Assembly: GCF_028583425.1 (NCBI RefSeq)
Contig: NC_072791.1
Location: 10,993,868 to 11,057,867 of the forward strand
Reading direction: 5' to 3'
DNA from: Eublepharis macularius
Taxonomy: Eukaryota > Chordata > Lepidosauria > Squamata > Eublepharidae
DNA: 64,000 nt
Shown piece after piece: positions 10,721 to 49,554 of this stretch. The notes under the pieces were generated by a model that worked only from the letters and a program-made list of their open reading frames with translations, did not search any database and had not been told where the DNA came from. A program made the translations under genes and the position numbers. Positions within the stretch are counted from its first letter, which is position 1. The number at the start of each line of letters is the position of its first letter.

Positions 10721-10722
10721 AT

Positions 10723-20903: not shown

Positions 20904-21618
20904 ATCAGTATACCAAGGAGCTACTCTAGTTTGGGGGCGGAGAGAGCGACGGGGAGCGATCTCATCAATAGCTTCAGAGAAACAGGCATTCCAGTCCTCT
21001 ATCAGCTCATCCAATGAGCCACCAGGGGGCATCGGATCCTGCAGAGCGTTCTGCAATTCAATTGGATCCATTTGACTCCACAGGCGAGCATAAATCAGCT
21101 CGTCGCCCAAGCACGAGGGGGTCATGGTGCCCAGACAAGCCCTCAGGATGAGGTGGTATGACCATGGCACTGCTATAGCTTCATCCAGATCCACCTGTAT
21201 CCTAAACCCAAAGATCAAATCCAGTGTGTGTCCTGCTCGATGTGTGGGCATTGATACAAACTGGGAGAATCCTAATGCTGCCATGGAGGCTATCATGTCC
21301 ATGGCCTGTGAGGAGGTAGCATCATCAGCATGGACATTGATGTCCCCTAAGACCAGAAGCCTGGGTTACTCCAAGGCCCAGCCAGCCACCGCCTCTAACA
21401 AGCCAGACACAGCATCTGCTGGTGCGCTGGGCGATCGGTACACCAGACACATGGCTGTACTCTCCTCGGCATTCCACACCAGGCCCACACAATCAATGCC
21501 AGCAATCTTTGGCAAGGGGACCAGCCTGATGGAGAAAGACTCTCGAAAGAGCACCACTACACCAACAAGACGTTTCCCAATATGTAAAACAAATATGAGA
21601 AAACTGTACCATAAATGT
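20904..21618 (-). pseudogene. L2-clade LINE endonuclease region (left copy)
   Basis: Read on the minus strand, the sequence runs from VGLVWNAEESTAMCLVYRSPSAPADAV through HTLDLIFGF and the SYHLILRACLG block (the place of the usual SDH motif) to RVAPWYTDELRQI. This is the apurinic-type endonuclease and following linker of an L2 element. The same blocks read on the plus strand at 45442-46080. It ends at 21618 against a solo LTR. Confidence 0.82.
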
Positions 21619-22049
21619 GTTGGAATATATGTGTGTTGCAAGGTCTGAGATTCAGTCATTATGGGGTTAATGTGTTTACCTACCATGCTATTGTTTAGAT
21701 TGACCTGGAAGGGGAACCTGGCTCAAAGCCAATAATCTGCAAGCCCGGGAAACTTGAGAGTGTTTGTAAACTGTTATTGGTCAACAGGTCAGGTGATTTT
21801 CTTTCAGAGTCAAGAAGACAGAGGAAGAAGAAGATTCTCCATTCAGTTATCCCAGCTCTTTGTTTGTAACCAGTAGTGAGAATGTACCTCCAGGCATTTG
21901 TTCTTTTGTAGGCAATCCTGTTAACCTTTTTTCCTTTAGAAGTAAATGATTTTAAAAGCTAAGCTCGTGTGCTGACTCTCTATTGATTCAAGATCCATTG
22001 CACCTCTGAAGAAAAGCTATTTTTTAACCTTTCCCCCCAACAAAGTGGA
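21619..22049 (+). repeat. Solo LTR of the copia family
   Basis: It begins tgttggaatatatgtg and ends cccccaaca, and resembles along its length the 425 bp LTRs of the copia element at 23962, with more differences, so it is an older insertion. No clear 5 bp duplication is visible at its ends. A shortened mirror copy lies at 45122-45441 in the right arm, so it predates the inverted duplication. Confidence 0.85.
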
Positions 22050-22796
22050 CCAGTTGAAGTAATTATTAAGGTGAAAAAGATGCTAGCGATTCGTGTATAT
22101 TGTTCTTTGAATAACAGCACTATGGTATGGCTTTGGATAGGCAATATGAGATCATTAACTCTCAAAAAAGGCAATCCTTATGAGCTATATCATCCTGCTT
22201 TCAGATAATACTGCCAGTCATTGCTGCATCTCAAAATAGTCTAGGAGGCTCAAGGTTATCTCAGAAGTCTCAGTCAACTTGAAAAGAATAATCCTTACTG
22301 AAACTAATCCTTTTTAGCTCTCCAGAGAGCCAGCTAAAAAGAAGAAAGCAAACAAACTAAGTAACTGCAGACAGAAGTATCTCCTTTTCAAGTACAACAT
22401 AATTCTCTCTCTGAGAAGGGGGTGGGAGTAGAAGACACTCTGTTGTGCCAGCCAGGAAAAAGGTGGGGAAATAGCTTCCAATGCTACAAAAAGAAACTTT
22501 TCAGCAACTTGAGGAAGCCAAGCAAGAAGTGAAAAGTAAAACGAAAGGGAAAAGGTGGGAAAATGCCTCCAGAGCTAAGAAAAAACCCACTTCACTGAGC
22601 AAACTGTATCCCAGCAACACCAAGGGAAGAGGCAGAGTGGAAAACACTAAAATCTTCACAGCTATTCTGCTGTGTCTGGAAAGAAAAGGACAGAAAGTCA
22701 GCTTCATGGCTGCAATAAAAGGGAGGAAAGTAGGAAAATTCTGCTGTAGCAATGCACAGAGCATACTTGCTGCAGAGGAACAAGTGCAGGGGAAAA
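22050..22796. other. Unclassified sequence shared by both arms
   Basis: No recognised coding. A 109-codon frame (22481-22810) is Lys-rich and low in complexity and matches no family I know; its mirror at 44380-44661 is not conserved as a frame. The stretch was contiguous with 30768 onward before the LINE inserted. Confidence 0.5.
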
Positions 22797-22809
22797 TACC
22801 TCTGCACTA
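22797..22809. repeat. 13 bp target-site duplication of APE-type LINE, left (tacctctgcacta)
   Basis: Repeated at 30755-30767, and in mirror form at 44335-44347 and 41584-41596 in the right arm. Confidence 0.9.
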
Positions 22810-22906
22810 GAACCTACAGCTATATAGTCAAGCTTTTAAGGTTTCCTCAAAATCTGAAAATCCTTTAAAGAGTTATGATGACCTCATCCAATCCTTAAGG
22901 CCACTT

Positions 22907-23929
22907 TTGGTAGGTGCTCGAGAGGGAAAACTGGTCAAGACCAATTTGTCATCTAAACCTTGGTTTGATCAAAGCTGTATTTGTGCTAAAAATGCTTTAA
23001 TCTATGCCTATAAGTTAGCACTGAGAGCTGATGAAAAGACTAGACAGGATGCATATCGTTCTCTTTCATTTTTAAAAAAGAAATATAAATCACTGGTTGC
23101 CCGCTGTAAGAAAGAACATACCAGAAAACTGTGGGCCAATATAATTGAAGCAGCTACGAGCAAAAACTCAGTGGTGTTCTGGAAACTAGTGTCAAACCGC
23201 GCCTCCACAGCCGCCTCCCCCTTGGCTTCCTGTATCCCCCCAGATAAATGGACTTCTTTTTTCCAAAAAATGTATGATGATCCTATTCAACCCTCTCCTG
23301 CCCTAACAATAGAAAATCTGGCCAAATGCCCCTCAGTTCATGCCGAAGAGGTAAAAGCTTATATTAGCCAGTTAAAGAATGCAAAAGCCCTTGGGCTTGA
23401 TGGAATATCTCCAGGATTACTAAAAACAAATAAGGACTGGTGGGCAACTTTCCTAGCCTCCCTATTTACTTATATTGATGAAACCGGCAACATCCCCAAT
23501 GATTGGGGAATGGCTATAGTAGTCCTCTTCCATAAGAAGGGAAAGGAGGATCCATCCAATTATAGACCCATCAGCTTACTAAGCATTGTAAGCAAGTTGT
23601 CTACAAAACATCTGCTGGAGAAATTTTTAGACTGGCTAGAACAGGAGGATATAATTGCTGATGAGCAATCTGGGTTTAGAGCTGGCAGGTCAACAATAGA
23701 TCACTGCCTAGCAATGCAACACCTTGTAGAGAAATACGCTACAGGAGACCAAGCATCACTTTACCGGGCATTTGTTGATTTAAAAGCAGCTTTTGACACA
23801 GTCTCTAGAAATAGACTTTGGAGGAAACTGCAGGCCTTCTCTATTGATAGGCGACTGCTGTTCCTTTTGGGGGCTATGCACAAGCAAACTGCCCTGAGTA
23901 AGGTGCAGCCGAATTGGGCATTTGACTGA
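22907..23929 (+). pseudogene. LINE reverse transcriptase, first half (left copy)
   Basis: The frame starts in the linker (KPWFDQSCICAKNALIYAYKL), passes LGLDGISPGLLKTN, the SNYRPISLLSIVSKL block, DEQSGFRAGRSTIDHCLA and the catalytic DLKAAFDTVSR block. It ends at 23929, shortly before the copia insertion. The right-arm copy has LGLDGIS as PGLDGIS. Confidence 0.85.
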
Positions 23930-23956
23930 CCCCATTCAAACTTACAGGCAGGTGTG

Positions 23957-23961
23957 CCTTC
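23957..23961. repeat. 5 bp target-site duplication of copia element, left (ccttc)
   Basis: Matches 29336-29340. In the right arm the undivided site occurs once as gaagg at 43195-43199. Confidence 0.92.
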
Positions 23962-24386
23962 TGTTGGAATATATGTGTGTTGCAAGGTCTGAGATTCAGT
24001 CATTATGGGGTTAATGTGTTTACCTACCATGCTATTGTTTAGATTGACCTGGAAAGGGAACCTGGCACAAAGCCAATAATCTGCAAGCCCGGGAAACTTG
24101 AGAGTGTTTGTAAACTGTTATTGGTCAACAGGTCAGGTGACTGTCCTTTCAGGGTCAAGAAGAAGGAGGAAGAAGAAGATTCTCCACCTTCCATTATCCC
24201 AGCTCTTTGTTGTAAAACAGTAGTGAGAAATGTAGCTCCAGGTGTTTTTGTTTTGTAGGCAACCTGTGACCCTTTTCCCTTTAGAAGTAAATGTTTTTAA
24301 AAGCTAAACTCGTGTGCTGACTCTCTATTGATCCAAGATCCATTGCACCTATGATTTAAAGCTATTTTAACCTTTTTTTCCCAACA
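23962..24386 (+). repeat. 5' LTR of copia element
   Basis: Starts tgttggaatat and ends cccaaca, so it has the TG...CA ends of LTRs. It matches 28910-29335 almost base for base. Confidence 0.95.
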
Positions 24387-24388
24387 AA

Positions 24389-24406
24389 GTGGTAGCAGAG
24401 GATGGT
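24389..24406 (+). promoter_or_regulatory. Primer-binding site, initiator-methionine tRNA type
   Basis: Two bases after the LTR, tggtagcagaggatgg is complementary to the 3' end of vertebrate initiator methionine tRNA (ending CCATCCTCTGCTACCA). Use of this tRNA is common in copia elements. Confidence 0.85.
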
Positions 24407-24752
24407 TGATTTTGGCGATTTTGGTTGGTGATTTTGTTATGGTGGTTTGTTTTGCCAAACAAGCAAATAATTTCGAAATGGATCTTTAAAGAGAGACTAA
24501 GCTAGATAGGCACAAAGGCTCAGATTTTTTTTCTACCAAACCTTTTTTGCTGCATTCAGTTGTAACTGGGAAAAGGAGATTATTTTAAAGATCTTGTTGT
24601 CTTTAAAAGTTTCTTAAAACTGGTCTGCACTGAGAAAACTGCAGCTGAGAACTATTGGAAGTTTTTCTTTACCCTCGGAGCCGAGCGGAGACGGCAGAGA
24701 GAACAAAGGAGATCGTTAACTCCACGTGTGCCTGAATCTTCACAGCTGAAAA

Positions 24753-27700
24753 ATGAGTTCCTCTGACCAGGGAGTCGTGAGTAATCCAAAGCCATTTCAA
24801 ATTAGCCAAGGAAATTTTCATATGCCTCATTTAAATAAAAACAACTTTACTTGGTGGCTGGCATTATTAAAAAGCCAACTTGAAATGCATAATGCTGAGG
24901 ACATTCTAACTGCAAACATACCAGATGATCCTCAAATAAAGCTTGAATTTACCAGGAAAAATGCTCTAGCCAAAACATTAATTATGACCTCAGTATCTCA
25001 TTATGAAGTCCAGGACTTGCATACCTTTGATACTGCAAAAGAGATGCTTGAAGCTTTAAAGAAGCGTTTTGAAAAACAGACATGCACCAAAATAATCTAT
25101 CTTAAAACAGAATTGTTTGATTTTAAAATTAAAGAAGGGGATTCCATACCAGCCCAATTGCAAAGATTTATGAAATTGTATAGAGAGTTGGAAGAACTCG
25201 GAGAGGCTCCGAAAGAGCGAGATGTTGTTGTTGCCTTGCTGAAAAGTTTACCAAGTAGCTATGAAAATTTAGCACTTCTCTTGAGACATAAAGAGAATTT
25301 AACACTGGAGCAATTGTTGACAAGTTTAAGAGAGGAACTGGATTCAAGAGAGGGAAGGAATTTACAGGCTGTGTCTGATGGAATGACTGTTTTGAATTTG
25401 GGAAATGGATATAGAGGCAGACAGACTAACTGCTTTTCTTGTGGTGGAAGGAGCCACATGGCCAGAGACTGTGCATTAAACCGAATGAATAATGGAGCGG
25501 CCATTGCTAGCCAATCAAATGCACGTTACCCTAGTACAGAGACTCATGTTGAAAGAGCATCTTCTCGTGGCAGAAGAGATTATAGCAGAAAAGGGAATTT
25601 CAGAGCCAGAAGCAGAGGGAGTGTGTCTAGAGGCAGATTTCAGAGAAATGGCAGGAGTAATTTTTCACTAAGAGTTTTTGATGATGAAGATATTCAGGAT
25701 AAGAAATTATTCCTCATCGATTCAGGAAGCTGCTGGCATATTTGCAAATATCGTGAATTGTTTTCTGAACTTGATACTGATGATAAACCCAGACTGTTCC
25801 AAGCAAATAAACAACCACTAAATGTGCTAGGAACTGGAAAGGTGCCAATTAAGCTATGCACAACAAGAGGGGAAATAGTAAATGTTACCCTTCAAGATGT
25901 GGCACTTGTTCCTGAAGCAGCAGAGAATTTAATCTCAACTAAGAAACTTGTGGAAAAGGACTGTGTGGTGGTTCTTCAGAAGAGAATGGGTAGTAGAAGT
26001 GTAATTGTTGAAAAGAAATCTGGAGTTAAGTTTGCTGTTGAAGAGAGAAATGGACTGCATTATTTTGTGGATGTTAGTGAAAGACCAGAAGTTGCTGATG
26101 CTGGTGAAGGACAGATTTATCAAACTAGCCAAGGTGCTTGTGATCACAGGAAATGCTTGTATTCATGGCATGTAAAAACAGGCCATAGAGGCATACAAAG
26201 TGTTGAAAAGTTGTTAGAGGACTGTGGAATTTTTGTTCCTGTTTGTGATAAAGCAAGAGAGAAATGTGAAACCTGTCTTAAAGCAAAGGGAACTAGCCCA
26301 AGCTACACAGGAAAGTCCACTACTCATAATGAGGAACTTCTAGAGACTGTATACTCTGATCTTGTTGGTCCACTAGCGCCATCTCTTGGCGGCAACAGAT
26401 ATTTTGCAACTTTTACTGAAAGTAAAACGAGGTATAGCATTGTATATCTGATGAAGAGCAAAGATGAAACGCTTGAGAAATTTAAATCTTTTGTTGCCAC
26501 AGTTAAGAATAAGTTTGGAAAAGCTCCTCAAAGCCTACGTACTGATGGTGGTGGAGAATATTGCAATGCAGAATTTAAGAAATTTTTACAATTTGAAGGC
26601 ATTGAACATAAAGTCACTATACATCACTCTCCACAACAAAATGGTTGTTCTGAGAGACTGAATCGGACTATACAGGAAATGTGTAGATCTATGCTTATAC
26701 ATTCTGGATTACCCAATGCATTATGGGCCGAAGCTGTGAACACAGCAGTTTATCTACACAACAGAGTACCTTCAAAGGTGACAGGCATTACTCCATTTGA
26801 AGCCTGGTTTGGCAAGAAGCCAGCTCTGAAGCACATCAAAGCATTTGGTTCCAAGGCCTATGCTTTTATACCAAAGGAAAGGAGAGGAAAGCTTGATCCT
26901 CGAGCTGAAGTTGGACTAATTGTAGGGTATGCCACTGGTGGAAGAGGATACAGAATTTACAATCCTCAAGAGCACAGAGTCAAAGAACAGAACGTGGTGT
27001 ATGTGGATGAGAGCCATTTATTACATGCTTCTAATGCAACTGAATCCACAGTGACAACTGATCCAAGTGATACAGAAACTGCTCCTGTAGAATTGGTCGA
27101 TTGGTTACCTGCAGTGACACCCGGGAAACCGGCAAGTCCACCTTCTCAAGAGATTACCCAAACAGAAGGGGAAGCAGGGACTGGACCAGAGGAGACAGAA
27201 GCAGCAACCACTGTGAGACGATCGGAAAGAAGCAACAAAGGAAACCCACCAGAGAAGTATGGATTCTGTGAAACTGTGCAACTTATCCAAGAACCTAAGA
27301 ACTGGAAAGATATATGCAAACTACCTGCTGATGAAAGAGACAAATGGATTGAAGCAATGGAAGAAGAACTGCAATCCATAAATACAAAACAAGTATGGAC
27401 TCTCACAAATTTACCCCCAGACAGAAGACCTGTTGGATGCAAATGGGTGTTCAAAATCAAGCACAATGCTGATGGAACTGTTGAGAAATACAAAGCACGT
27501 TTAGTAGCTAAAGGATTCTCCCAGGAATATGGAACTGACTACTTTGAGACTTTTGCACCAGTTATCAACCATGCAACGTTCAGGACACTACTCAGTGTTG
27601 CAGCATCAAGAAACATGATAGTAGAGCATCTGGATATAAAGACAGCCTTTCTCAACGGAGAATTATCTGAGGAAATCTATATGGAGCAACCTGAAGGATT

Positions 27701-28856
27701 CCAGATCAAGGGAATGGAAGATCATGTGTACAAGCTCAACAAAGGTCTATATGGCTTAAAGCAAGCAGCAAAAGCCTGGTATGACAAAATATCAGGGCTA
27801 CTACAAAAGCAAGGATTCAAGCAAGGAAAAGCTGAACCATGTCTGTACACCAGAGTTAAAAATGGACAATATCAGTACATTCTTATTTATGTTGATGACT
27901 TGATAATATCTTGCCAAGACAGACAAGACATCAAAGAAATAGTTGATGGACTGAACAAAGAGGTAGAGGTGAAGCAACTTGGAGATGCACAACATTACCT
28001 CGGAATACAGCTAGAAAGACTTGAAGATGGAACTTTTCTTCTAAGTCAGAAAAGAAAGACATTGGACTTTATAGAATCTATTGGCATGAAAAACTGCAAT
28101 GCGACATATATACCACTTGAACCTGATTACTTGAGAGAAAGAGATGGAAAACCACTTAGGGATATTGGTGGATACAGAGAAGCAATTGGAAAACTTCTGT
28201 ACTTGAGCAAAACCACAAGACCTGATATAGCAGTAGCTGTTAGCATCTTATGCAGAAAAGTAAGTTCTCCTAATCATCATGACTGGAATGCGATAAAGAA
28301 AATAGCAAGATACCTGAAAGGAACAGCAGACCTAAAGCTGAGAATCTCGCCATCTGAGAAACCAAGACTGGTTGGATATATGGACGCCAATTGGGGAGAA
28401 GAATCAAGTGACTACAGATCAACCAGCGGATATCTATTCTTTTATGGAAATGGACTGATAGACTGGACTAGTAGAAAACAAACCATTGTAGCACAATCTA
28501 CAGCAGAAGCTGAATGTGTGTCAGCGGCGAGTGCCTGCAGTGAACTAGAGTGGATCTTCAACCTGCTAAAAGACTTTGGAATAAATGAACCTATACCTGT
28601 AGTTATGTTTGAGGACAATCAAGCGTGTATTACTATATGCCAAGGAGAAAGTACTAAAGCAAGAAGCAGATCTATTGGACTTAAATGTGAACTTGTGAAA
28701 GATATGTACCAGAAGGGACTAATAGAAATTGAACACTGTCGTACTGAAGAAATGGTGGCTGATATTCTGACTAAACCATTGTCTAAAACCAAGTTTGAGT
28801 ATCTTCGTGAAATGTTGAATATGTTTGATCCTAATGCTGAAAGAAAAGTTGAATGA
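24753..28856 (+). CDS. Copia gag-pol polyprotein
   Basis: The 1367-residue polyprotein has the copia order. The gag region (about 1-220) is followed by a zinc knuckle CFSCGGRSHMARDC (about 226). The protease motif DSGS is near 322. The integrase has an HHCC region (about 477-510) and a DDE core with YSDLVGPL (about 534) and RTDGGGEY (about 597). The reverse transcriptase has the YVDDL motif near 1045, and the RNase H has DANWG near 1211. Reading gag and pol in one frame is normal for copia. It lies between the LTRs with a leader of about 350 bp. Confidence 0.95.
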   Translation: MSSSDQGVVSNPKPFQISQGNFHMPHLNKNNFTWWLALLKSQLEMHNAEDILTANIPDDPQIKLEFTRKNALAKTLIMTSVSHYEVQDLHTFDTAKEMLEALKKRFEKQTCTKIIYLKTELFDFKIKEGDSIPAQLQRFMKLYRELEELGEAPKERDVVVALLKSLPSSYENLALLLRHKENLTLEQLLTSLREELDSREGRNLQAVSDGMTVLNLGNGYRGRQTNCFSCGGRSHMARDCALNRMNNGAAIASQSNARYPSTETHVERASSRGRRDYSRKGNFRARSRGSVSRGRFQRNGRSNFSLRVFDDEDIQDKKLFLIDSGSCWHICKYRELFSELDTDDKPRLFQANKQPLNVLGTGKVPIKLCTTRGEIVNVTLQDVALVPEAAENLISTKKLVEKDCVVVLQKRMGSRSVIVEKKSGVKFAVEERNGLHYFVDVSERPEVADAGEGQIYQTSQGACDHRKCLYSWHVKTGHRGIQSVEKLLEDCGIFVPVCDKAREKCETCLKAKGTSPSYTGKSTTHNEELLETVYSDLVGPLAPSLGGNRYFATFTESKTRYSIVYLMKSKDETLEKFKSFVATVKNKFGKAPQSLRTDGGGEYCNAEFKKFLQFEGIEHKVTIHHSPQQNGCSERLNRTIQEMCRSMLIHSGLPNALWAEAVNTAVYLHNRVPSKVTGITPFEAWFGKKPALKHIKAFGSKAYAFIPKERRGKLDPRAEVGLIVGYATGGRGYRIYNPQEHRVKEQNVVYVDESHLLHASNATESTVTTDPSDTETAPVELVDWLPAVTPGKPASPPSQEITQTEGEAGTGPEETEAATTVRRSERSNKGNPPEKYGFCETVQLIQEPKNWKDICKLPADERDKWIEAMEEELQSINTKQVWTLTNLPPDRRPVGCKWVFKIKHNADGTVEKYKARLVAKGFSQEYGTDYFETFAPVINHATFRTLLSVAASRNMIVEHLDIKTAFLNGELSEEIYMEQPEGFQIKGMEDHVYKLNKGLYGLKQAAKAWYDKISGLLQKQGFKQGKAEPCLYTRVKNGQYQYILIYVDDLIISCQDRQDIKEIVDGLNKEVEVKQLGDAQHYLGIQLERLEDGTFLLSQKRKTLDFIESIGMKNCNATYIPLEPDYLRERDGKPLRDIGGYREAIGKLLYLSKTTRPDIAVAVSILCRKVSSPNHHDWNAIKKIARYLKGTADLKLRISPSEKPRLVGYMDANWGEESSDYRSTSGYLFFYGNGLIDWTSRKQTIVAQSTAEAECVSAASACSELEWIFNLLKDFGINEPIPVVMFEDNQACITICQGESTKARSRSIGLKCELVKDMYQKGLIEIEHCRTEEMVADILTKPLSKTKFEYLREMLNMFDPNAERKVE

Positions 28857-28899
28857 TGTTTGTTAAATATGAATGCATAATGACTTCCATGCTAGACCT

Positions 28900-28909
28900 T
28901 GAGAAGGGG
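28900..28909 (+). promoter_or_regulatory. Polypurine tract of copia element
   Basis: tgagaagggg directly precedes the 3' LTR, the usual position of the plus-strand primer. Confidence 0.8.
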
Positions 28910-29335
28910 TGTTGGAATATATGTGTGTTGCAAGGTCTGAGATTCAGTCATTATGGGGTTAATGTGTTTACCTACCATGCTATTGTTTAGATTGACCTGG
29001 AAAGGGAACCTGGCACAAAGCCAATAATCTGCAAGCCCGGGAAACTTGAGAGTGTTTGTAAACTGTTATTGGTCAACAGGTCAGGTGACTGTCCTTTCAG
29101 GGTCAAGAAGAAGGAGGAAGAAGAAGATTCTCCACCTTCCATTATCCCAGCTCTTTGTTGTAAAACAGTAGTGAGAAATGTAGCTCCAGGTGTTTTTGTT
29201 TTGTAGGCAACCTGTGACCCTTTTCCCTTTAGAAGTAAATGTTTTTTAAAAGCTAAACTCGTGTGCTGACTCTCTATTGATCCAAGATCCATTGCACCTA
29301 TGATTTAAAGCTATTTTAACCTTTTTTTCCCAACA
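28910..29335 (+). repeat. 3' LTR of copia element
   Basis: Same ends and nearly the same sequence as the 5' LTR. Confidence 0.95.
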
Positions 29336-29340: not shown

Positions 29341-30608
29341 TAGCCCCCTTTCTGTTTATCTTCTACATCAACAATTTGGTAAACATTTTGAATGCCCCTG
29401 GATTGCACCCTCCCAAATTAGCACATAGGCACATTCACGTACTGCTCTATGCAGTTGATGCTGTATTACTTTCTAGGACCCCCATAGGGCTGAAACGAGC
29501 CCTACAAAAATTCTCCCAATTCTGCGATACTGAACACCTTCTAACTAATTACCAAAAAACTAAGATCCTGGCTTTCAGTAAAGATCCAAAGATCAGATGA
29601 TGGGAGCTTCAGGGGCATCAGTTAGAACAACTTACCAGCTTCAAATATTTGGGTGTAGTTTTGCAAGCCTCAGGTACCAAAACAACACATAGCAGCTTCA
29701 TTGCTGATGTGGGAGAAAAAACAGCACACGGTATACTGAAATTCTATCGATCACAAGGGGGGCAGTATGTACCGGCTGCGCTCAGATTGTTTAAAGCCAA
29801 ACCATTGGCCCAATTAGTATACGGATCATTCTTGGGGCTGCCATCCTCCTCTTTCTCTCAACTTGAGAGAGTGCACTCCAAATTCCTTAGAGCCCTATTA
29901 CAAGTGCCCAAATGCATGCCTAACTCATGGGTTAGACTGGAAACAGGAATGTTAAGGGTAGAGGCCAGAATCACCATCCTTTCAATTTTCAAATGGCTGT
30001 CAGGACGTCTAAACCCGCAAGGTCTGCTCCCTCTGTTATTCCAAGACAAATTTCAATCTAAATGGCAAAAGGCGACTCTGAAATCCCTGGGAAAATTGGG
30101 TCTTTCCCTTCAAAGTTTGCTAGTCATGGGGTTAGACCGAGCAAAATCACTCATTAAGCAGAGAGTGACAGACATTGAAAGACAAACAGATTTACGTAGA
30201 GCACCAGGTTTTATTTCTTCAGATACTACTAAATATATTGCCGCTCCTGAAGCCTACTTTTACTTTCTTGAATCCAGTATCTCCAGAAGGGCATTTGCTT
30301 TAGCTAGAAGTTCAACTCTACCCTCTGCCGTTCTGGAAGGAAAGTTTAAAGCTGTCCTTTACTCTCTTAGGCTTTGCTCCTATCCCCTAAGAGAAATGGA
30401 CTCAATGGAGCCCATCTTCTTTAACTGCCCAAGTCATAGTAAAATTAGAGCGGAAACCATCAGTCCATTAGTAGAAAGATTCCCTGGAAGTTCAAATAAA
30501 ATCAAACTTGATTATCTTTTGTCTGATCGGAATCACCAGACACCACATCAAGTAGCAAGATTCTGTGCCCAGGTCTACAAGCAACGTAAATTGCATAAGG
30601 CAGCTTAA
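29336..30608 (+). pseudogene. LINE reverse transcriptase, second half and C-terminus (left copy)
   Basis: After the copia element the LINE continues with LAPFLFIFYINNLVN and HIHVLLYAVDAVLLSRTP, where the usual YADDAV has a Val for the first catalytic Asp. It then runs through FKYLGVVLQASG and a C-terminal region ending VARFCAQVYKQRKLHKAA. A stop near 29600 separates two frames (29376-29600 and 29649-30608). In the right copy the motif is intact (LLYADDAVLLS). Confidence 0.85.
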
Positions 30609-30754
30609 ACAACTAATTTATGATGATCTTATTTTTTTACTCTTATATTTATTCATCGTTTTTCCCCGGTATCCAGTCTCAACTGTTTTTAAACTGATTT
30701 GCAAATGGTTTTATATGTACTGGTCGCAGACTGTAATAATAAACTTGACTTGAC

Positions 30755-30767
30755 TACCTCTGCACTA
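30755..30767. repeat. 13 bp target-site duplication of APE-type LINE, right
   Basis: Matches 22797-22809 (tacctctgcacta). Confidence 0.9.
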
Positions 30768-31480
30768 AGAACAGCAGAAATACCTGAACCTACTTCATGG
30801 GGTGAATTATCCTAGCTACCACCAGAAGAAGCTGAGAAATGGAGAAAAGTGGAGGGTGTGGTGTCGGTGTTGAAGAGAATGATAGCACATTGAAAGAGCT
30901 CCGTCTCTCCCATGCCTGAAATTTAAAATTTATGTTGGAAGGGCGAAGTAAAAATATTTACCCTTCCAACGTAAAGATACACTAAGAGATCCGAAAGGCA
31001 GATTCATATTTATTAAAGGCACTATAGAAAACCAAACATACACATTTGGCTCAATTTATGCCCCAAACCAAGACAGCCTAATGAAATTCTAAAACAAAGT
31101 TCATTAGAATACACATGTATCACTTAGTATAATTTGCTCTAAACCATATTTTCATGACAAACCCACAGAAACAGCAGCAACATAATCTAAGAGTATAATG
31201 GAAAGCAACAAATAGAAACAGAAGGATTAAAATATCCTGCTCACTAGGTTGGAGGCAAGTTCTGACAACAACAGGGCCAACAACAAAGATTCTCAGGTCA
31301 AACTCCATGGTCAAGTAACAGATTCCAAAATCAAAGACTGTGACCCACCAAGGCTCAGGCAGCCAGAACCTAAGAGCTCACCAACAGTCAAGTCCAGAAC
31401 ACCACAATTGTGACTAGCATGCCAGCTGCAGCCTTATAAAGGGAGTTTCTCCTACAGGTGAGGCTGGGTTCATTAAGCTT
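30768..31480. other. Arm sequence with an L1 endonuclease scrap
   Basis: Most of it is unrecognised. At about 30980-31092 the plus strand reads RDPKGRFIFIKGTIENQ and FGSIYAPNQDS, which matches the endonuclease of the L1 at 35113 (DPRGRFIFIKGTLEE, ASIYAPND). It is a small old L1 fragment. The mirror copy is at about 41277-41400. Confidence 0.65.
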
Positions 31481-31717
31481 CTTTCTCCAAGCTGGCTCAT
31501 CTCTGCTACTCAGGAGGAGTAGATCAGATCCTGCACTGGCTCTCCTGACATTTCTTCAGCAGGGGGAAGGCCGTGGGCTGCCAGGCATGCGCTCCTGTGC
31601 TTGGTCCATGCCTCTGCCCTTACCCTCAGCCTTCGCTGCTCCTGGGGTTCTTTGGGAGACAGCGGCAGGTCTGGCAGCAGGCAGGTCCATGCTAAGGCCG
31701 CCTGGCTTGATGACACT

Positions 31718-34540: not shown

Positions 34541-34559
34541 TATCACATGTGCCCTTGTT

Positions 34560-36544: not shown

Positions 36545-37279
36545 ACGTCGAAGGCTTTCACGGCCGGAGAACGATGGCTGTTGTGGGTTTTCCGGGCTGT
36601 ATTGCCGTGGTCTTGGCATTGTAGTTCCTGACGTTTCGCCAGCAGCTGTGGCTGGCATCTTCAGAGGTGTAGCACCAAAAGACAGAGATCTCTCAGTGTC
36701 ACAGTGTGGAAAAGATGTAGGTCATTTGTATCTACTCAGGAGGGGTGGGGTTGAGCTGAGTCATCCTGTAAAAGTTTCCCAGGGTGTGGAATGCTAATGG
36801 CGGGAGGCTTCACTGTATCCTGAGGAGGTTCTTTTGCATATGGATTGGTGCTTGATGTGCTAATCTTCTCTGCAGGGCTATTGTCGGGGATAGAATGTTT
36901 TGTTAGCCTGGTGTTTTTCAGAACTGGAAACCATGCTCTGTTCATTCTTAAGGTTTCTTCTTTCCTGTTGAAGTTTTGCTTATGCTTGTGAATTTCAATG
37001 GCTTCCCTGTGCAGTCTGACAAAGTAGTTGGAAGTGTTGTCCAGTATTTTGGTGTCCTGGAATAAGATACTGTGCCCTGTTTGAGTTAGGCTATGTTCAG
37101 CCACTGCTGATTTTTCAGGTTGTCCAAGTCTGCAGTGTCTTTCATGTTCTTTTATTCTTGTCTGGATGCTACGCTTTGTGGTCCCGATGTAAACTTGTCC
37201 ACAGCTGCAGGGTATACGGTATACTCCTGCAGAGGTGAGGGGGTCTCTACTGTCTTTTGCTGATCGTAGCATCTGTTGT
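36545..37279 (-). mobile_element. Penelope-like fragment (nuclease part and pLTR)
   Basis: On the minus strand the frame 37279-36736 reads GVYRIPCSCGQVYIGTTKRS, KSAVAEHSLTQTGH and the C-terminal tail, followed by the pLTR down to 36545. The reverse transcriptase is absent (5' truncated). A hammerhead-like core lies at 36627-36669. Confidence 0.88.
36627..36669 (-). ncRNA. Hammerhead-ribozyme-like motif in Penelope pLTR
   Basis: Same core as at 19643-19685 on the opposite strand: CTGAAGA, the GCCAGC/GCTGGC stem, GAAA and CGTCAGG. Confidence 0.68.
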
Positions 37280-37377
37280 AATACAAAAATACTGCTGGAG
37301 AGGCTCGTGGCTGTCTCCCTGCCTGCATTCCAGTACAGTCTCTTAATATTATCAACTACTGTAATACTAACCAAATT

Positions 37378-38784
37378 GTGGCACTGTTATTGGCACTGGA
37401 CACAGAAAAGGCTTTTGACAGCTTAGAAACTAATTTTCTTTTGAAACTCCTGTCAAAAATGAGTTTTGGCCCATCCTTTATACACTTGATCAATTTGCTT
37501 TATGCCAACCCTACGGCTCAGCTGAAAATAAATGGAATGATATCAAAGAGCATCAAGCTAACTAGAGGGACCTGACAAGGATGTCCCCTCTCCCCATTAT
37601 TTTTTGCCTTCTCTATTGAACCATTGGCAGAAACCATAAGACAAACATCTGAGATTGCAGGTGTTAGAATCAAAAAACATGAATATAAAGTCTCCCTCTT
37701 TGCAGATGACATGGTACTCTATATTGTTAACCCACTTGCCTCATTAACTCCCCTGGAAAATATCTTGTATAAATTTGGGCAACTATCAGGCCTCAAAATT
37801 AATAAATCCAAGTCTGAAATTTACCCTATTAATCTAACCCCAGCCATATGTTCACATATAGCTTCTACTTTTGAATACCACTGGATTTGTAATAATTGGG
37901 ACTATTTAGGTATCATGATTCCCTTAAATTTAGCCAATCTAAAAGATTCTCATTTTAAACCCCTGGAGGTAAGGGTTAAAAATAAGTTTTATGATTGGGA
38001 CAAGTTAAATTTGTCCTGGGCTGAAAAAACACTGCTAGTCAAATCCATGATTTTACCTCTTTTCTTATTTAACTTTCGTATGCTGCCTATTCATCTCACG
38101 GATCAAGATGTCCAGTCATGGCAAAGTCTCATAAATAAATTTATCTGGGCTAACAAACGCCCTAGAATCAACTTCTCAACCACGAAACGTGCCTCCAATA
38201 GAGGTGGATTGGCTATACCTGATTTAAAACATTATTACATGGCTGCTCAATTAGCTAATATAGTGCTTTTGTTAAATCCTACAGAAAATTTAGACTGGAG
38301 CTATGCTGAAACAACACACATTTCCCCACATGACATAAAAGATATAATCTGGACAGATCATAAAAGTAGACCAGTTCAAACATTTACCAATCCTTTTCTG
38401 AAATCTACTCTAATAACTTGGGACAGGGTAAGGCAGTATCTAGCCCCCACTCCTTCTCTGTTATCATCCTTCCTGGACCAATCTTGGTTTCCACCTGGAA
38501 AGGATTTAATCTCATTCCAGAAATGGAAGATACTTAAGAAAAGTAGAATTATGGATATAACCAAACAAGGGGCCATCCTAAGTAAAGGGCAAATTGAAAA
38601 AGATGTAGCTGATACCTTGCCATGGTACCAATACTTACAACTGTCACACCTTATAAGCAGCCAACCAATTGCAAATGCTTTGAAACATGAGCTAACAGAC
38701 TTTGAGTTCCTGCTAAAACAAATATCATCTCAACGTAAGGGACTTATAGCAAGAATTTATTCCATTTTAAACCTAAAAAAATGA
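37378..38784 (+). pseudogene. L1 ORF2 reverse transcriptase core and thumb (copy 4)
   Basis: After the Penelope fragment the L1 reads LALDTEKAFDSLETN, a GT-QGCPLSPLFFAF block and the catalytic SLFADDMVLY block, then LKINKSKSE and YLGIMIP. A stop (TGA) sits inside the RQGCP block near 37573. The long frame 37624-38784 extends to RKGLIARIYSIL. Confidence 0.88.
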
Positions 38785-38806
38785 ACATCCACCCTTAAAA
38801 TACCAA

Positions 38807-39442
38807 ATGAAATGGAATAGGGATTGCAAGAACATACTAACGGACAACCAATGGGCCCTGACTTGGTCAGGCAGACACCTAAAAACTAAAGCAATCAATA
38901 TTAAAATGTCATCTTTTAAAATAATGTCGAGATGGTACGTGACACCTAGTTCCCTCCACCACCTTAATCCTACTATAGCCCTGCTTTGTTGGAAGCAATG
39001 CGGCCAAATTGGAGATTATATTCATCTCTGGTGGATGTGCCCTAAAATCCAGTCATTCTGGGACTTAATCTTGAGGTCTGTTACAGAAATCACAGGCTAT
39101 GATGTACCTAAAAATCCTGAGACAATCCTGCTGGGTCTCTGGGAAGACCCAACAGTACCAACGATCAGGAGAAACTGAATACTCTTGTTATTAGCTGCAG
39201 CGAAAATGCTTCTTGCGTTATACTGGAAACAAGACAGACTTCCAAAATTGCAGCAGTGGTACCAGAAAGTGTGGGATATCTTCACCATGGAGAAAATAGC
39301 GGATTATCTTCACTCTACTGATAATCCACAGCATCATTCAACGTTCTTTACACAATGGATACCTTTTTTGAACCATCTTCATGCTACCAATCAACTGCCG
39401 AATGCAGATATGAACATTTTCAGCTTTTTGGCAATCTTATGA
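38807..39442 (+). pseudogene. L1 ORF2 C-terminal region (copy 4)
   Basis: Pieces show MSRWYVTPSSLHH, then the Cys-His block CWKQCGQIGDYIHLWWMC, then LALYWKQDRLPKLQQWYQKVW, ending at 39442. The order matches copy 1. Confidence 0.85.
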
Positions 39443-39479
39443 GTCTTCTCTAGTATTGTACCTTCTCTAACAATAATGT

Positions 39480-40107
39480 ACTTTTCAGTGATAGCTGATC
39501 TCTTATTGACTGTTCCAAGGTGCCCAGTGGGGTGCCACAGGGCTCGGTCCTGGGCCTGGTACTTTTCAATATTTTTATAAATGATCTGGATGAGGGTGTG
39601 GAGGGGCTATGCATTAAATTTTCAGATGACATCGAATTGGGAGAAGCAGCAAACAAAATCAGTAGATAGGGATAGAATTCAACGAGATTGGAACACATTG
39701 GAAAAGTGGGTGGATGTGAACAAGATGCAATTTAACAAGGATAAGTGCCAAGTTCTACATCTGGGTAGCAAAAATGAAGAACACACATACTGGATGGGGG
39801 ATACACTTCTGGTTAGCAGTGTGAGTGAAAAAGATCTTGGGGTTCAGATGGAACGTAAGTTAAATATGAGCAGCCAGTGTGATGAAGTGACAAAAAAGGT
39901 GAGTGCGATCTTGGGGTCTATCAACAGAGGCATAACATCCAAATTGCGTGATGTCATAGGGGGGCATGACTGCTCTCTTTCAGTATTTGAAGGGCTGTCA
40001 CTTAGAGGACGGCAGGGAGCTGTTCCTGTTGGCAGCAGAGGATAGGGTTTAAATTATGGGCCAGATGATACCAGCTGGATATTAGGAAGCACAGTAAGAT
40101 GGACTTC
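39480..40107 (+). mobile_element. CR1 LINE fragment (end of reverse transcriptase and 3' end)
   Basis: The plus strand encodes [27 protein letters not shown], a FSDD catalytic block, KMQFNKDKCQVLHLG and DLGVQMERKLNMSSQ, the classic CR1 C-terminal half. It continues into CR1 3' sequence (tttgaagggctgtcac, ggagctgttcctgttgg). It has small shifts and is old. Confidence 0.9.
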
Positions 40108-40620
40108 GGAGGGGTATAATGCCACAGGCACTGACCTCCAATGACACCATTATCTCTAAGAGAGATAACGTCACCATATGGAGTTCAGTTGTAATGGAAA
40201 CAGATCTCCAGGCGGGTTGGCAACTACTGTAAGGAGGTGCTTCAGACACTCCAGTTGCCAATACCCAATACCACCATTGTCTCCAATTTAGGTAAAATAG
40301 GACATACGGAGTTCAGCTGAAATGGAAGGAGATCTCCAGGTACGGCAATCATAATATGGAGGGTCCTCAGTGGGGTATAATTCCACAGAAGCCACACTCC
40401 AAAGCCACCATTCTGTTTGAGATAATTAAAACTTGTCATTTGAAAGTCATTTGTAACTCTTGGAGTTCTCTAGGTGGGTTGGCATCAATTATCAGGTAGT
40501 ACCTATGTGGGGTATAATTCCACATAGGCCAGCCTAAGAAGCCTCCATGTCTCGGAGCATGTTAAAACCTGTCAACTGGAGATCAGTTGTAATTTGTGGG
40601 GATCTCCAGGAGGGTTGGCA
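40090..40620. repeat. Four diverged tandem modules of about 135 bp (MITE-like), right arm
   Basis: Same modules as 31718-32121 in reverse complement, plus one extra module at the inner end (about 40090-40226). Confidence 0.65.
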
Positions 40621-40899
40621 ACCACAGTGTCATCAAGCCAGGTGGCCTTAGCATGGACCTGCCTGCTGCCAGACCTGCTGCTGTCTCCCAAAGAACCTCA
40701 GGAGCAGCGAAGGCTGAGGGTAAGGGCAGAGGCATGGACCAAGCACAGGAGCGCATGCCTGGCAGCCCACGGCCTTCCCCCTGCTGAAGAAATGTCAGGA
40801 GAGCCAGTGCAGGATCTGATCTACTCCTCCTGAGTAGCAGAGATGAGCCAGCTTGGAGAAAGAAGCTTAATGAACCCAGCTTCACCTGTAGGAGAAACT

Positions 40900-41583
40900 C
40901 CCTTTATAAGGCCTCAGCTGGCATGGGATTAGCTAGTCACAATTGTGGTGTTCTGGACTTGGCTGTTGGTGAGCTCTTAGGTTCTGGCTGCCTGAGCCTT
41001 GGTGGGTCACAGTCTTTGATTTTGGAATCTGTTACTTGACCATGGAGTTTGACCTGAGAATCTTTGTTGTTGGCCCTGTTGTCGTCAGAACTTGCCTCCA
41101 ACCTAGTGAGCAGGATACTTTTAATCCTTCTGTTTCTATTTGTTGGTCTCCATTATACTCTTAGATTATGTTGCTGCTGTTTCTGTGGGTTTGTCATGAA
41201 AATATGGTTTAGAGCACATTATACTAAGTGATACATGTGTATTCTAATGAACTTTGTTTTAGAATTTCATTAGGCTGTCTTGGTTTGGGGCATAAATTGA
41301 GCCAAATGTGTATGTTTGGTTTTCTATAGTGCCTTTAATAAATATGGATCTGCCTTTCAGGTCTCTTAGTGTATCTTTACGTTGGAAGGGTAAATATTTT
41401 TACTTTACCCTTCCAACATAAATTTTAAATTTCAAGCATGGGAGAGATGGAGCTCTTTCAATGTGCTATCATTCTCTTCATCACCAACACCACACCCTCC
41501 GCTTTTCTCCATTTCTCAGCTTCTTCTGGTGGTAGCTAGGATAATTCACCCCATGAAGTAGGTTCAGGTATTTCTGCTGTTCT
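40900..41583. other. Right-arm mirror of 30768-31480
   Basis: Apart from the L1 scrap on the minus strand at about 41277-41400 nothing is recognised. Confidence 0.55.
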
Positions 41584-41954
41584 TAGTGCAGAGGTAGTCA
41601 AGTCAAGTTTATTATTACAGTCTGCGACCAGTACATATAAAACCATTTGCAAATCAGTTTAAAAACAGTCGAGACTGGATACCGGGGAAGAACGATGAAT
41701 AAATATAAGAGTAAAAAAATAAGATCATCATAAATTAGTTGTTTAAAAGGTTAAAATACATTCAGTCTGAATTATGTGATTTACGTTGCTTGTAGACCTG
41801 GGCACAGAATCTTGCTACTTGATGTGGTGTCTGGTGATTCCGATCAGACAAAAGATAATCAAGTTTGATTTTATTTGAACTTCCAGGGAATCTTTCTACT
41901 AATGGACTGATGGTTTCCGCTCTGATTTTACTATGACTTGGGCAGTTAAAGAAG

Positions 41955-42117
41955 CTCCTGACACTGATGTGACACTGCTCCTGACACTGATGTGACACTG
42001 AGAGATCTCTATCTTTTGGTGCTACACCTCTGAAGATGCCAGCCACAGCTGCTGGCGAAACGTCAGGAACTACAATGCCAAGACCACGGCAATACAGCCC
42101 AGAAAATCCACAACAAC
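41955..42117 (+). mobile_element. Penelope pLTR fragment in right-arm LINE
   Basis: A pLTR piece reads ctcctgacactgatgtgaca (a unit repeated twice), then the common tail with the hammerhead-like core at 42024-42067, and ends acaacaacc. The left arm lacks it, so it came after the duplication. Confidence 0.82.
42024..42067 (+). ncRNA. Hammerhead-ribozyme-like motif in Penelope pLTR
   Basis: Same core as at 19643-19685. Confidence 0.65.
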
Positions 42118-43194
42118 CAAGATGTGCTCCATTGAGTCCATTTCTCTTAGGGGACAGGAGCAAAGCCTAAGAGAGTAGTGGACAGCTTTAAACTTTCCTT
42201 CCAGAACGGCAGAGGGTAGAGTTGAACTTCTAGCTAAACTAAATGCCCTTCTGGAGTTACTGAATTCAAGAAAGTAAAAATAGGCTGCAGGAGTGGCAAT
42301 ATATTTAGTAGTATCTGAAGAAATAAAACCTGGTGCTCTAAGTAAATGTTTGTCTTTCAATGTCTGTCACTCTCTGCTTAATGAGTGATTTTGCTCGGTC
42401 TAACCCCATGACTAGCAAACTTTGAGGGGAAAGACTCAATTTTCCCAGGGATTTCAGAGTCGCCTTTTGCCAATTAGATTGAAATTTGTCTTGGAATAAC
42501 AGAGGGAGCAGACCTTGCGGGTTTAGACGTCCTGACAGCCATTTGAAAATTGAAAGGATGGTGATTCTGGCCTCTACCCTTAACATTCCTGTTTCCAGTC
42601 TAACCCATGAGTTAGGCATGCATTTGGGCACTTGTAATAGGGCTCTAAGGAATTTGGACTGCACTCTCTCAAGTTGAGAGAAAGAGGAGGATGGCAGCCC
42701 CAAGAATGATCCGTATACTAATTGGGCCAACGGTTTGGCTTTAAACAATCTGAGTGCAGCCGGTACATACTGCCCCCCTTGTGATCGATAGAATTTCAGT
42801 ATACCGTGTGCTGTTTTTTCTCCCACATCAGCAATGAAGCTGCTATGTGTTGTTTTGGTACCTGAGGCTTGCAAAACTACACCCAAATATTTGAAGCTCG
42901 TAACTTGTTCTAACTGATGTCCCTGAAGCTCCCATCGTCTGATCTTTGGATTTTTACCGAAAGCCAGGATCTTAGTTTTTTTGGTAATTAGTTAGAAGGT
43001 GTTCAGTATCGCAGAATTGGGAGATTTTTTTAGGGCTCGTTTCAGCCGTATGGGGGTCCTAGAAAGTAATACAGCATCATCTGCATAGAGCAGTACGTGA
43101 ATGTGCCTATTTGCTAATTTGGGAGGGTGCAATCCAGGGGCATTCAAAAGGTTTACCAAATTGTTGACGTAGAAGATAAACAGAAAGGGGGCTA

Positions 43195-43199
43195 GAAGG
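43195..43199. other. Empty copia target site in right arm
   Basis: The LINE sequence reads through gggggctagaaggcacacc without interruption. In the left arm the same five bases (ccttc) are doubled around the copia element. Confidence 0.9.
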
Positions 43200-44347
43200 C
43201 ACACCTGCCTGTAAGTTTGAATGGGGTCAGTCAAATGCCCAATTCGGCTGCACCTTACTCAGGGCAGTTTGCTTGTGCATAGCCCCCCAAAGGAACAGCA
43301 GTCGCCTATCAATAGAGAAGGCCTGCAGTTTCCTCCAAAGTCTATTTCTAGAGACTGTGTCAAAAGCTGCTTTTAAATCAACAAATGCCCAGTAAATTGA
43401 TGCTTGGTCTCCTGTAGCGTGTTTCTCTACAAGGTGTTGCATTGCTAGGCAGTGATCTATTGTTGACCTGCCAGCTCTAAACCCAGCTTGCTCAACAGCA
43501 ATTATATCCTCCTGTTCTAGCCAGTCTAAAAATTTCTCCAGCAGATGTTTTGTAGACAACTTGCTTACAATGCTTAGTAAGCTGATGGGTCTATAATTGG
43601 ATGGATCCTCCTTCTTTCCCTTCTTATGGAAGGGGACTACTATAGCCATTCCCCAATCATTGGGGATGTTGCCGGTTTCATCAATATAAGTAAATAAGGA
43701 GGCTAGGAAAGTTGCCCACCAGTCCTTATTTGTTTTTAGTAATCCTGGAGATATTCCATCAAGCCCAGGGGCTTTTGCATTCTTTAACTGGCTAATATAA
43801 GCTTTTACCTCTTCGGCATGAACTGGGGGGCATTTGGCCAGATTTTCTATTGTTAGGGCAGGAGAGGGTTGAATAGGATCATCATACATTTTTTGGGAAA
43901 AAGAAGTCCATTTATCTGGGGGGATACAGGAAGCCAAGGGGGAGGCATTTGACACTAGTTTCCAGAACACCACTGAGTTTTTGCTCGTAGCTGCTTCAGT
44001 TATATTGGCCCACAGTTTTCTGGTATGTTCTTTCTTACAGCGGGCAACCAGTGATTTATATTTCTTTTTGAAAAATGAAAGAGAACAATATGCATCCTGT
44101 CTGGTCTTTTCATCAGCTCTCAGTGCTAGCTTATAGGCATAGATTAAAGCATTTTAAGCACAAATACAGCTTTGATCAAACCAAGGTTTAGATGACAAAT
44201 TGGTCTTGACCAGTTTTCCCTCTCGAGCACCTACCAAAAGTGGCCTTAAGGATTGGACGAGGTCATCATAACTCTTTAAAGGATTTTCAGATTTTGAGGA
44301 AACCTTAAAAGCTTGACTATATAGTTGTAGGTTCTAGTGCAGAGGTA

Positions 44348-45121
44348 TTTTCCCCTGCATTTGTTCCTCTGCAGCAAGTATGCTCTGTGATTTGCTACAG
44401 CAGAATTTCCCTACTTTCCTCCCTTTTATTGCAGCCATGAAGCTGACTTTCTGCCCATTTCTTTCCAGACACAGCAGAATAGCTGTGAAGATTTTAGTGT
44501 TTTCCACTCTGCCTCTTCCCTTGGTGTTGCTGGGATACAGTTTGCTCAGTGAAGTGGGTTTTTTTCTTAGCTCTGGAGGCAGTTTCCCACCTTTTCCCTT
44601 TCGTTTTCCTTTTCACTTCTTGCTTGGCTTCCTCAAGTTGCTGAAAAGTTTCTTTTTGTAGCATTGGAAGCTATTTCCCCACCTTTTTCCTGGCTGGCAC
44701 AACAGAGTGTCTTCTACTCCCACCCCCTTCTCATGTTTGCTGTGAGACAATGAGAGAGAGAATTATGTTGTACATGAAAAGGAGATACTTTTGTCTGCAG
44801 TTACTTAGTTTGTTTGCTTTCTTCTTTTTAGCTGGCTCTCTGGAGAGCTAAAAAGGAGTAGTTTCAGTAAGGATTGTTCCTCTCAAGTTGACTGAGACTT
44901 CTGAGATAGCCTTGAGTCTCCTAGACTATTTTGAGATGCAGCAATGACTGGCAGTATTATCTGAAAGCTGGATGATATAGCTCATAAGGTTTGCCTTGAG
45001 AGTTAATGATCTCATATTGCCTATCCAAAGCCATACCATACTGCTGTTATTCAAAGAACAATATACACGAATCACTAGCATCTTTTTCACCTTAATAATT
45101 ACTTCAACTGGTCCACTTTGT
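44348..45121. other. Unclassified sequence, mirror of 22050-22796
   Basis: No coding recognised. Matches the left arm in reverse complement with small gaps. Confidence 0.55.
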
Positions 45122-45441
45122 GGGAGGAAAAGGTTAAAAAATAGCTTTTCTTCAGAGGTGCAATGGATCTTGAATCAATAGAGAGTCAGCACAAGAGTTT
45201 AGCTTTTAAAATCATTTACTTCTAAAGGAAAAAATGTTAACAGGATTGCCTACAAAATAACAAATGCCTGGAGCTACATTCTCACTACTGGTTACAAACA
45301 AAGAGCTGGGATAACTGAATGGAGAATCTTCTTCTTCCTCTGTCTTCTTGACTCTGAAAGAAAATCACCTGACCTATTGACCAGTAACAGTTTACAAACA
45401 CTCTCAAGTTTCCCGGGCTTGCAGATTATTGGCTTTGAGCC
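45122..45441 (-). repeat. Solo LTR of the copia family, shortened mirror copy
   Basis: It matches the solo LTR at 21619-22049 in reverse complement but covers only about three quarters of it. It joins L2 sequence directly at about 45442. Confidence 0.82.
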
Positions 45442-47168
45442 AGGTGTGGGCCTGGTGTGGGATGCCAAGGAGAGTATAGCCATCTGTCTGGTGTACCGAT
45501 CGCCCAGCGCACCAGCAGATGCTGTGCCTGGCCTGTTAGAGGAGGTGGCTGGCTGGGCCTTGGAGTAACCCAGGCTTCTGGTCTTAGGGGACATCAATGT
45601 CCATGCCGATGATGCTACCTCCTCACAGGCCATGGACATAATAGCCTCCATGGCAGCATTACGACTCTCCAAGTTTGTATCAATGCCCACACACATCGAG
45701 CAGGACACACACTGGATTTGATCTTTGGATTTGGGATACAGGTGGATCTGGATGAAGCTATAGCAGTGCCATGGTCAGACCACCTCATCCTGAGGGCTTG
45801 TCTGGGCACCATGACCCCCTCCTGCTTGGGCGACGAGCTGATTTATGCTCGCCCGTGGAGTCAAATGGATCCAATTGAATTGCAGAACGCTCTGCAGGAT
45901 CCTATGCCCCCTGGTGGCTCATTGGATGAGCTGATAGAGGACTGGAATGCCCGTTTCTCTGAAGCTATTGATGAGATCACTCTCCGTCGCTCTCTCCACC
46001 CCCGAACTAGAGTAGCTCCTTGGTATACTGATGAACTACGACAAATCAAATGGGAGCTGAGTCGGCTAGAGCGAGTGTAGCGGCGACTCCATGATGAAGT
46101 GACAAGAACATCTTATAGGACATTTATGAAGGCCTATGAGATGGCTCTGAAAGCTGCAAAGAGAGACTACTATGCAGCTTCCACTGCATCCACTAGTTCT
46201 CGCCCAGCACAACTTTCCAGAGTAATTTGGTCTTTAACGTCCCTCACACATGGGACAAATAAAAATGTAAATTCGGTAATCAGCTGTGAGGCTTTTGGAG
46301 ACTATTTTGCGGATAAGATCTTGTCACTCCGCCGGGATCTGTCCACCACAGTTGATGCAGTATGTGTACTGGAGGCCCCTTGGTCGTCCTCAGGGTTGGT
46401 ATTAGATCAATTCAGGCCACTCTCCCGGAGGAGGTGGGCAGGGTCCTGCATGCTGTGAAACCTACCACGTGCCCACTGGACCCATGCCCATCATGGCTGG
46501 TGGAAAAGTGGTGGTGATGGGATTTGGGCACCATTAGCTGACATCATTAATCTTTCTCTGAGTTCTGGGTTTTTTCCAGACTCACTGAAAGAGGCAGTGG
46601 TGCGGTCCTTATTAAAGAAACCATCACTGGATCCTGCTGATCCAGCCAATTATCGCCCAGTTTCGAATATTCCGTTCCTGGGTAAGGTAATTGAGAGGGT
46701 GGTAGCGGAACAGCTGCTGGTATACCTGGGTGATGCCTCTATCCTGGATCCTTTCCAGTCCAGCTTCAGGCCTGGCCATGGTACAGAGACGGCTCTGGTT
46801 GCCCTCACAGATGATCTGCGGCGACACCTGGACCAGAGTGTGTCAGCACTGCTGATACTTTTAGATCTTATGGCAGCATTTGACATGGTCAATCATAATC
46901 TTCTGACCCACTGCCTTGCCGATGTGGGGATTTGTGAAACAGCCCTGCAATGGCTGAACTCCTTCCTTCACAATCTAGGACAGAGGGTGGCACCCGGGGA
47001 ACAGATGTCTGCCTACCATTCTTTGGTATGTGGCATCCCTCAGGAGGCGATTCTTTCCCCGATGCTATTTAACATCTATATGTGCCCCCTTGCCCGGTTA
47101 GCCCGCAGCTTTGGGCTAGGTTGTCACCGGTATGCGGATGACACTCAGCTCTATCTGCTGATGGATGG
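45442..47168 (+). pseudogene. L2-clade LINE, endonuclease to reverse transcriptase (right copy)
   Basis: The plus strand reads VGLVWDAKESIAICLVYRSPS, then the SDHLILRACLG block, VAPWYTDELRQIKWEL, then the reverse transcriptase blocks NYRPVSNIPFLGKVIERV, FQSSFRPGHGTETALVAL, LLILLDLMAAFDMVNHNLL, VCGIPQEAILSPMLFNIYM and HRYADDTQLYLLMDG. The gypsy LTR follows at 47169. Stops near 46080 and a shift near 46430 show it is dead. It is the most continuous L2 copy here and is the reference for the left copy. Confidence 0.88.
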
Positions 47169-49551: not shown

Positions 49552-49554
49552 CTG

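Follow-up and report, generated by a model that had tools for sequence, protein, structure and literature searches.

An inverted segmental duplication of a repeat-filled locus, overlaid by later retrotransposon insertions, in Eublepharis macularius

How did the same series of dead repeats come to stand twice, in mirror order, within one 64,000-nucleotide stretch of the Eublepharis macularius genome? The stretch, which we refer to in its entirety as the window (contig NC_072791.1, positions 10,993,868 to 11,057,867 of the forward strand), had been credited in a preliminary description with a large inverted duplication at 20904–47168. Aligning the window to itself on both strands, we found minus-strand matches that form a collinear chain (15129–15977/46881–46033, 20888–21490/46048–45444, 21716–23962/45445–43194, 29336–30418/43199–42119 and 30416–32127/41954–40216), with an additional 40-bp minus-strand match at 8991–9030/46904–46865. 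As controls, we used 10 randomised first-order Markov windows that keep dinucleotide tendencies; none of the 10 contained an inverted self-match at E ≤ 1e-5, and the observed duplication therefore lies far beyond chance. The chain, and its absence from the randomised windows, bears out the inverted duplication first proposed.

Segmental duplications are by definition at least 1 kb long with at least 90% identity. With three left-arm inserts removed beforehand, the two arms aligned over 6,467 columns at 97.36% identity, with 171 mismatches (110 transitions and 61 transversions) and a Kimura two-parameter (K2P) distance of 0.027. The overall difference of 2.6% agrees with the roughly 6 differences per 240 bp (2.5%) estimated at the outset. 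BLAST identities for the five main pieces, 95.7–96.9%, fall below the alignment figure because BLAST counts gap columns. The arms are also separated by 16 indels, among which the right arm has a 227-bp deletion and a Penelope-like insert of 167 bp. Excluding inserts, the left arm measures 6,717 bp by coordinates (8991–9013, 15129–15977, 20904–23961 and 29341–32127) and pairs with the reverse complement of the right arm, which measures 6,689 bp (46904–40216). The spacer between them, 32128–40215, is 8,088 bp long, matching the earlier figure of about 8 kb. The outer limits required correction. Position 20904, initially taken as the start of the left arm, is a mere edge of a later composite insert, and the arm resumes at 15129–15977 and 8991–9013; on the right, homology stops at 46904 (minus strand) rather than at 47168, although the right-arm L2 itself reads to 47168 (plus strand).

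Both arms hold a nest of repeats. We presume the names Penelope-like, L2, L1, CR1-like and gypsy-type, used throughout, from protein motifs and domain make-up. Inwards along the plus strand, the left arm comprises the outermost homologous piece of an L2 long interspersed element (LINE), just before an L1 insertion (8991–9013); an L2-type LINE reverse transcriptase coding on the minus strand (15129–15977, paired with 46881–46033); a segment at 20904–23961 containing the L2 end, a long terminal repeat (LTR; 21618–22042), an unclassified stretch (22043–22796) and the 5′ part of a LINE from 22810; and a segment at 29341–32127 containing the 3′ part of that LINE to 30754, an L1-like scrap near 30988–31067 (75% identical to an L1 in the spacer) and tandem modules to 32127. 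The right arm (40216–46904, minus strand) has the LTR at 45445–45119, its 5′ part deleted, and the LINE at 44334–41597, these inner coordinates being counted from the alignment.

The joints between these repeats, in the part of the alignment shown, fall at matching places in both arms: LTR 3′ end against unclassified stretch, unclassified stretch against LINE 5′ end, and LINE 3′ tail against its flank, followed at matching places by the L1-like scrap and the tandem modules. In both arms the LINE is flanked by a 13-bp target-site duplication (TSD), TACCTCTGCACTA, with left-arm copies at 22797–22809 and 30755–30767 (plus strand). The same in-frame stop codon after ...NWAFD is common to both LINE copies; one more stop occurs in the right copy only, and frame-changing indels separate the arms. 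The L2/LTR joint is missing from the right arm, where the 227-bp deletion (21489–21715 in left coordinates) removes the L2 end plus 98 bp at the start of the LTR. We attribute the loss to the right arm because the absent LTR part exists in the LTR of a Copia-type element, the left-arm LTR at 21618–22048 matching the Copia-type LTR at 23962–24392. The left-arm LTR is itself flanked by AAATG and AAGTG, which could be a worn 5-bp duplication; AAGTGG is also identical to the start of the Copia-type interior, and this is therefore only a possible solo LTR.

Alignment of the window to its own reverse complement, suggested with the original proposal, thus matched joints as well as repeat bodies, the L2/LTR joint excepted: the identity of joints claimed throughout holds for the LTR 3′ end and for the LINE with its TSD, and fails at the L2/LTR boundary. 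Because joints and the 13-bp TSD are common to both arms, independent insertion of the common repeats is ruled out, as had been argued. Together, the shared joints, the LINE TSD and the shared LINE stop codon support a locus that was already filled with repeats when the inverted duplication happened. Our results very probably reflect a single inverted segmental duplication of a locus holding this nest of dead repeats (L2, LTR, unclassified DNA, LINE, L1 scrap and tandem modules).

After the duplication, the arms diverged independently and new retrotransposons entered each. The right arm is uninterrupted at all three left-arm insertion points. At the first, the left arm carries an apparently full-length L1 (9031–15128, plus strand; ORF1 open reading frame 9875–10720, ORF2 frame 10696–14160), absent from the right arm and bounded by an identical 17-bp TSD at 9014–9030 and 15129–15145. 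At the second lies a composite insert found only in the left arm (15978–20887, plus strand), with Penelope-like copies and a gypsy fragment set within an L1 5′ untranslated region (UTR)-like start and, weakly, such an end; an identical 16-bp TSD stands at 15962–15977 and 20888–20903. The start of this insert resembles an L1 5′ UTR best at 70% over 137 columns, its end shows a weak 28-bp likeness, and it contains neither an L1 frame of 120 codons nor a poly-A. Inside are two inverted Penelope-like copies, the gypsy fragment (19769–20601, 98.4% identical to 51359–50529) and a third Penelope-like piece; either one chimeric insertion or nesting is compatible with these observations. At the third point, again in the left arm only, is the Copia-type LTR retrotransposon (23962–29335, plus strand; TSD CCTTC), with an uninterrupted 1368-codon gag-pol frame (24750–28856) and LTRs at 23962–24386 and 28910–29335 that align with one gap. 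Private to the right arm is the 167-bp Penelope-like fragment (41955–42121, minus strand). The left arm thus has three inserts (four with an L1 at its left edge), and the right arm, within its homologous part, a single short one; these numbers are too small to interpret. The result is a stratified record: old repeats common to both arms came first, the duplication followed, and private insertions came last. In it, the neutral divergence of the arms (2.7%) can be compared with that of private-element LTRs, which is 0 mismatches in the Copia-type element (425 aligned columns) and 6 of 226 positions in a gypsy-type element beside the right arm.

Which arm is the copy? The inner end of the right arm runs unbroken through 40216 into a repeat module, ...GTTGCCAACCCGCCTGGAGATCTG..., part of which matches 32003–32078, an earlier module of the array, at 77.6% identity over 76 columns. 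The left arm departs from the module after 9 bp, GTTGCCAAC, entering unrelated DNA at 32127/32128. Because the module continues at the right inner end and is cut at the left, the right arm and spacer probably retain the original order, and the left arm is probably a copy in reverse, attached at 32127/32128 to the far side of the spacer through a junction that the event itself would have made. Elsewhere in the window the spacer finds matches solely via dispersed pieces (a Penelope-like insert, an 80-bp L1 stretch and a 75-bp module beside the right arm) and, within the window, it was not duplicated along with the arms. Such a reverse copy probably arose when a broken end folded back or replication switched template, either of which would leave an unduplicated spacer between the arms; part of the 8,088 bp may be a later insertion. 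In the portion of a study of human inverted-duplication junctions that bears on this point, an unduplicated spacer was present in 21 of 21 sequenced junctions (766–70,466 bp, median 3,428) and was explained by broken-end fold-back (PMC3907307). The size of the spacer here lies within that human range. A genuine duplication running the other way, with the left arm original and the right arm copied, or with both arms derived from a third locus, overlaps the reading just given and differs from it in direction alone; we regard it as the less likely course, though a realistic one. One inner junction alone informs on direction, and substitutions in the arm LTRs, polarised with the Copia-type LTRs, are uninformative (3 left-derived, 6 right-derived and 1 ambiguous); the continuity of the module at the right inner end speaks against the reverse course.

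Two further explanations are each improbable. The first is an assembly artefact, in which a false or haplotypic copy was set in reverse. False copies in assemblies tend to be almost identical, or to differ as haplotypes do, and to lie in direct order, whereas these arms differ by their 171 mismatches and 16 indels and the left arm has three TSD-bearing inserts that the right arm lacks. The second, about as doubtful, is that gene conversion keeps the arms alike and that 2.7% greatly understates the age of the event. Close inverted arms make good conversion partners, and mismatch dispersion (variance/mean, assessed with 2,000 permutations) reached 1.59 in 500-bp windows (p = 0.08), which leans in this direction. 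However, dispersion was 1.02, 1.07 and 1.17 at 50, 100 and 250 bp (p = 0.35, 0.25 and 0.22), so that clustering was not significant at any window size from 50 to 500 bp; the longest identical run, 185 bp, was below the permuted mean of 213; and the arms have retained private indels and inserts. Identity plotted along the arms, a check for conversion tracts raised in the preliminary description, ranged from 95.2 to 98.8% per block (26 blocks: 25 of 250 columns and one of 217), and neither dispersion nor run length indicated homogenised tracts between the arms. The permutations therefore lend no support to gene conversion, which is not needed to explain the similarity of the arms; of the two options offered there, a fairly recent event or conversion, the divergence behind the former is confirmed, at 2.7%.

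Consistent with two neutral, methylated copies, differences were distributed as expected between CpG (47 of 214 columns) and non-CpG (124 of 6,252) sites. CpG observed/expected in the window is 0.30, a value that, along with the types of repeat present and a SCAN-like gag domain in the gypsy-type element, suggests a squamate-like host. Using a lizard rate of 8e-10 per site per year, as given in an excerpt of PMC8735750 and valid for a squamate-like host, the arms are about 17 Myr old from the K2P distance of 0.027, or about 12 Myr from the uncorrected non-CpG value of 0.0198.

Several observations weigh against a single fold-back duplication with the right arm as the original. In 500-bp windows, the clustering of mismatches comes close to significance. 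No long shared repeat was seen at the junction 32127/32128, where fold-back would be expected to use homology; because none spans it, nothing points to recombination between a pair of long inverted repeats. The direction depends on a single junction and a diverged repeat module, and the inverted microhomology expected of fold-back would show only against the pre-duplication flank at 32128. Finally, both outer ends are masked, the left by an L1 and the right by the gypsy-type element, which has no visible TSD.

At the left outer end, homology meets at 8991 the A-rich tail of a further L1, with pieces at 21–1490, 5074–5676 and 7361–8367. Because this tail abuts the last homologous base, it is plausible that the left arm continues past the left edge of the window. 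At the right outer end, the L2 continues in frame at 46905–47168 (plus strand), a stretch for which the window holds no counterpart on the left, and then meets the gypsy-type element (47169–53131, minus strand), the LTRs of which are 97.3% identical, about the same divergence as between the arms. By eye, no TSD was seen for this element (it is flanked by GATGG at one end and by AAAAT or TACTG at the opposite end), and no L2 frame was recognised beyond it, an inspection by eye rather than a search as there was no query for the missing L2 part. A rearrangement at the gypsy-type element, perhaps contemporaneous with the duplication, is possible, although few sites bear on it.

It is very unlikely that a single large composite mobile element inserted twice, in opposite orientations, to give the arms: everything recognisable in them is repeat-derived and 22043–22796 is unclassified, but no terminal repeat or unit TSD was seen by eye at the inner ends (the outer ends being masked), the inner LINE is bounded by a TSD of its own, beyond which the two flanks are unrelated, and we set a composite transposon aside on the shared joints and that internal TSD. 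Equally speculative is a function for the arrangement, in which transcription of the arms would give a long hairpin RNA whose paired LINE, L2 and LTR remnants would supply small-RNA silencing directed at related elements, with the inverted copy kept as a silencing locus.

The inverted segmental duplication at this locus is thus genuine, single and moderately old; the region is repeat-rich and vertebrate-like, and the duplication is of a known and ordinary kind, well preserved and with a clear order of layers. It resembles other inverted segmental duplications (low-copy repeats) in exceeding 1 kb and 90% identity, in its shared internal repeat joints and in its opposite orientation, and is unlike them in that Pfam scans of 20 of the 48 open frames of at least 120 codons revealed no recognisable host gene. 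Sex-chromosome palindromes have large inverted arms with arm-to-arm conversion; the likeness here extends to large inverted arms flanking a spacer, whereas a recognised host gene is again lacking, the arms diverge by 2.6% and there is no sign of homogenised tracts. With the fold-back inverted duplications described in part of PMC3907307, the locus shares inverted arms and a kilobase spacer seemingly continuous with one arm, but its arms are about 6.7 kb in the window and those are megabases long. Among the literature matches listed, no title dealt with this locus or with squamate inverted duplications of small size. The junction described here may shed light on how duplications of this size originate, without overturning current views.

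The spacer (32128–40215, plus strand) contains a 195-bp unit present twice, a 155-bp array of 11 units, a diverged L1 (35107–39178) with a Penelope-like insert, a CR1-like fragment (39581–40045) and the repeat module continuing from the right arm. The 155-bp array, at 32841–34529, has approximately 11 copies with 73% matches and lies around 700 bp from the inferred junction.

Pfam domains reported in the window were reverse transcriptase, endonuclease, integrase, protease, RNase H, copia-type gag and SCAN. We saw no sign of function in the open frames, Pfam domains or Rfam families examined, the last giving no match at gathering scores. Among the viral contigs of IMG/VR, a collection unlikely to hold relatives of the LINE protein encoded in the arms, 7 pattern stretches turned up, with 0 confirmed. 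The gag of the gypsy-type element (50857–52143) matches the Pfam SCAN domain with an E-value of 3.1e-13. This accords with the resemblance of SCAN to the gag of Gmr1-like gypsy elements; the same excerpted source places KRAB zinc-finger proteins with SCAN in mammals and lizards, and not in frog or chicken (PMC4592553).

Other palindromic elements lie outside the arms. A 3,565-bp palindromic element at 1493–5057 sits inside an L1 reading frame, with CCACAA on either side (1487–1492 and 5058–5063) and with ends CTAGGGATGTGC and GCACACCCCTAG. Its arms consist of minisatellite blocks and are identical at 1,496 of 1,591 aligned positions, in an alignment 1,974 long as the block numbers differ; it resembles a foldback-type DNA transposon. 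Near the right edge of the window are four short palindromic repeats of one family, 207–244 bp long (56055–56264, 59810–60016, 61494–61737 and 62234–62471), resembling hairpins of miniature inverted-repeat transposable elements, and a fifth such palindrome possibly begins at 63949–64000.

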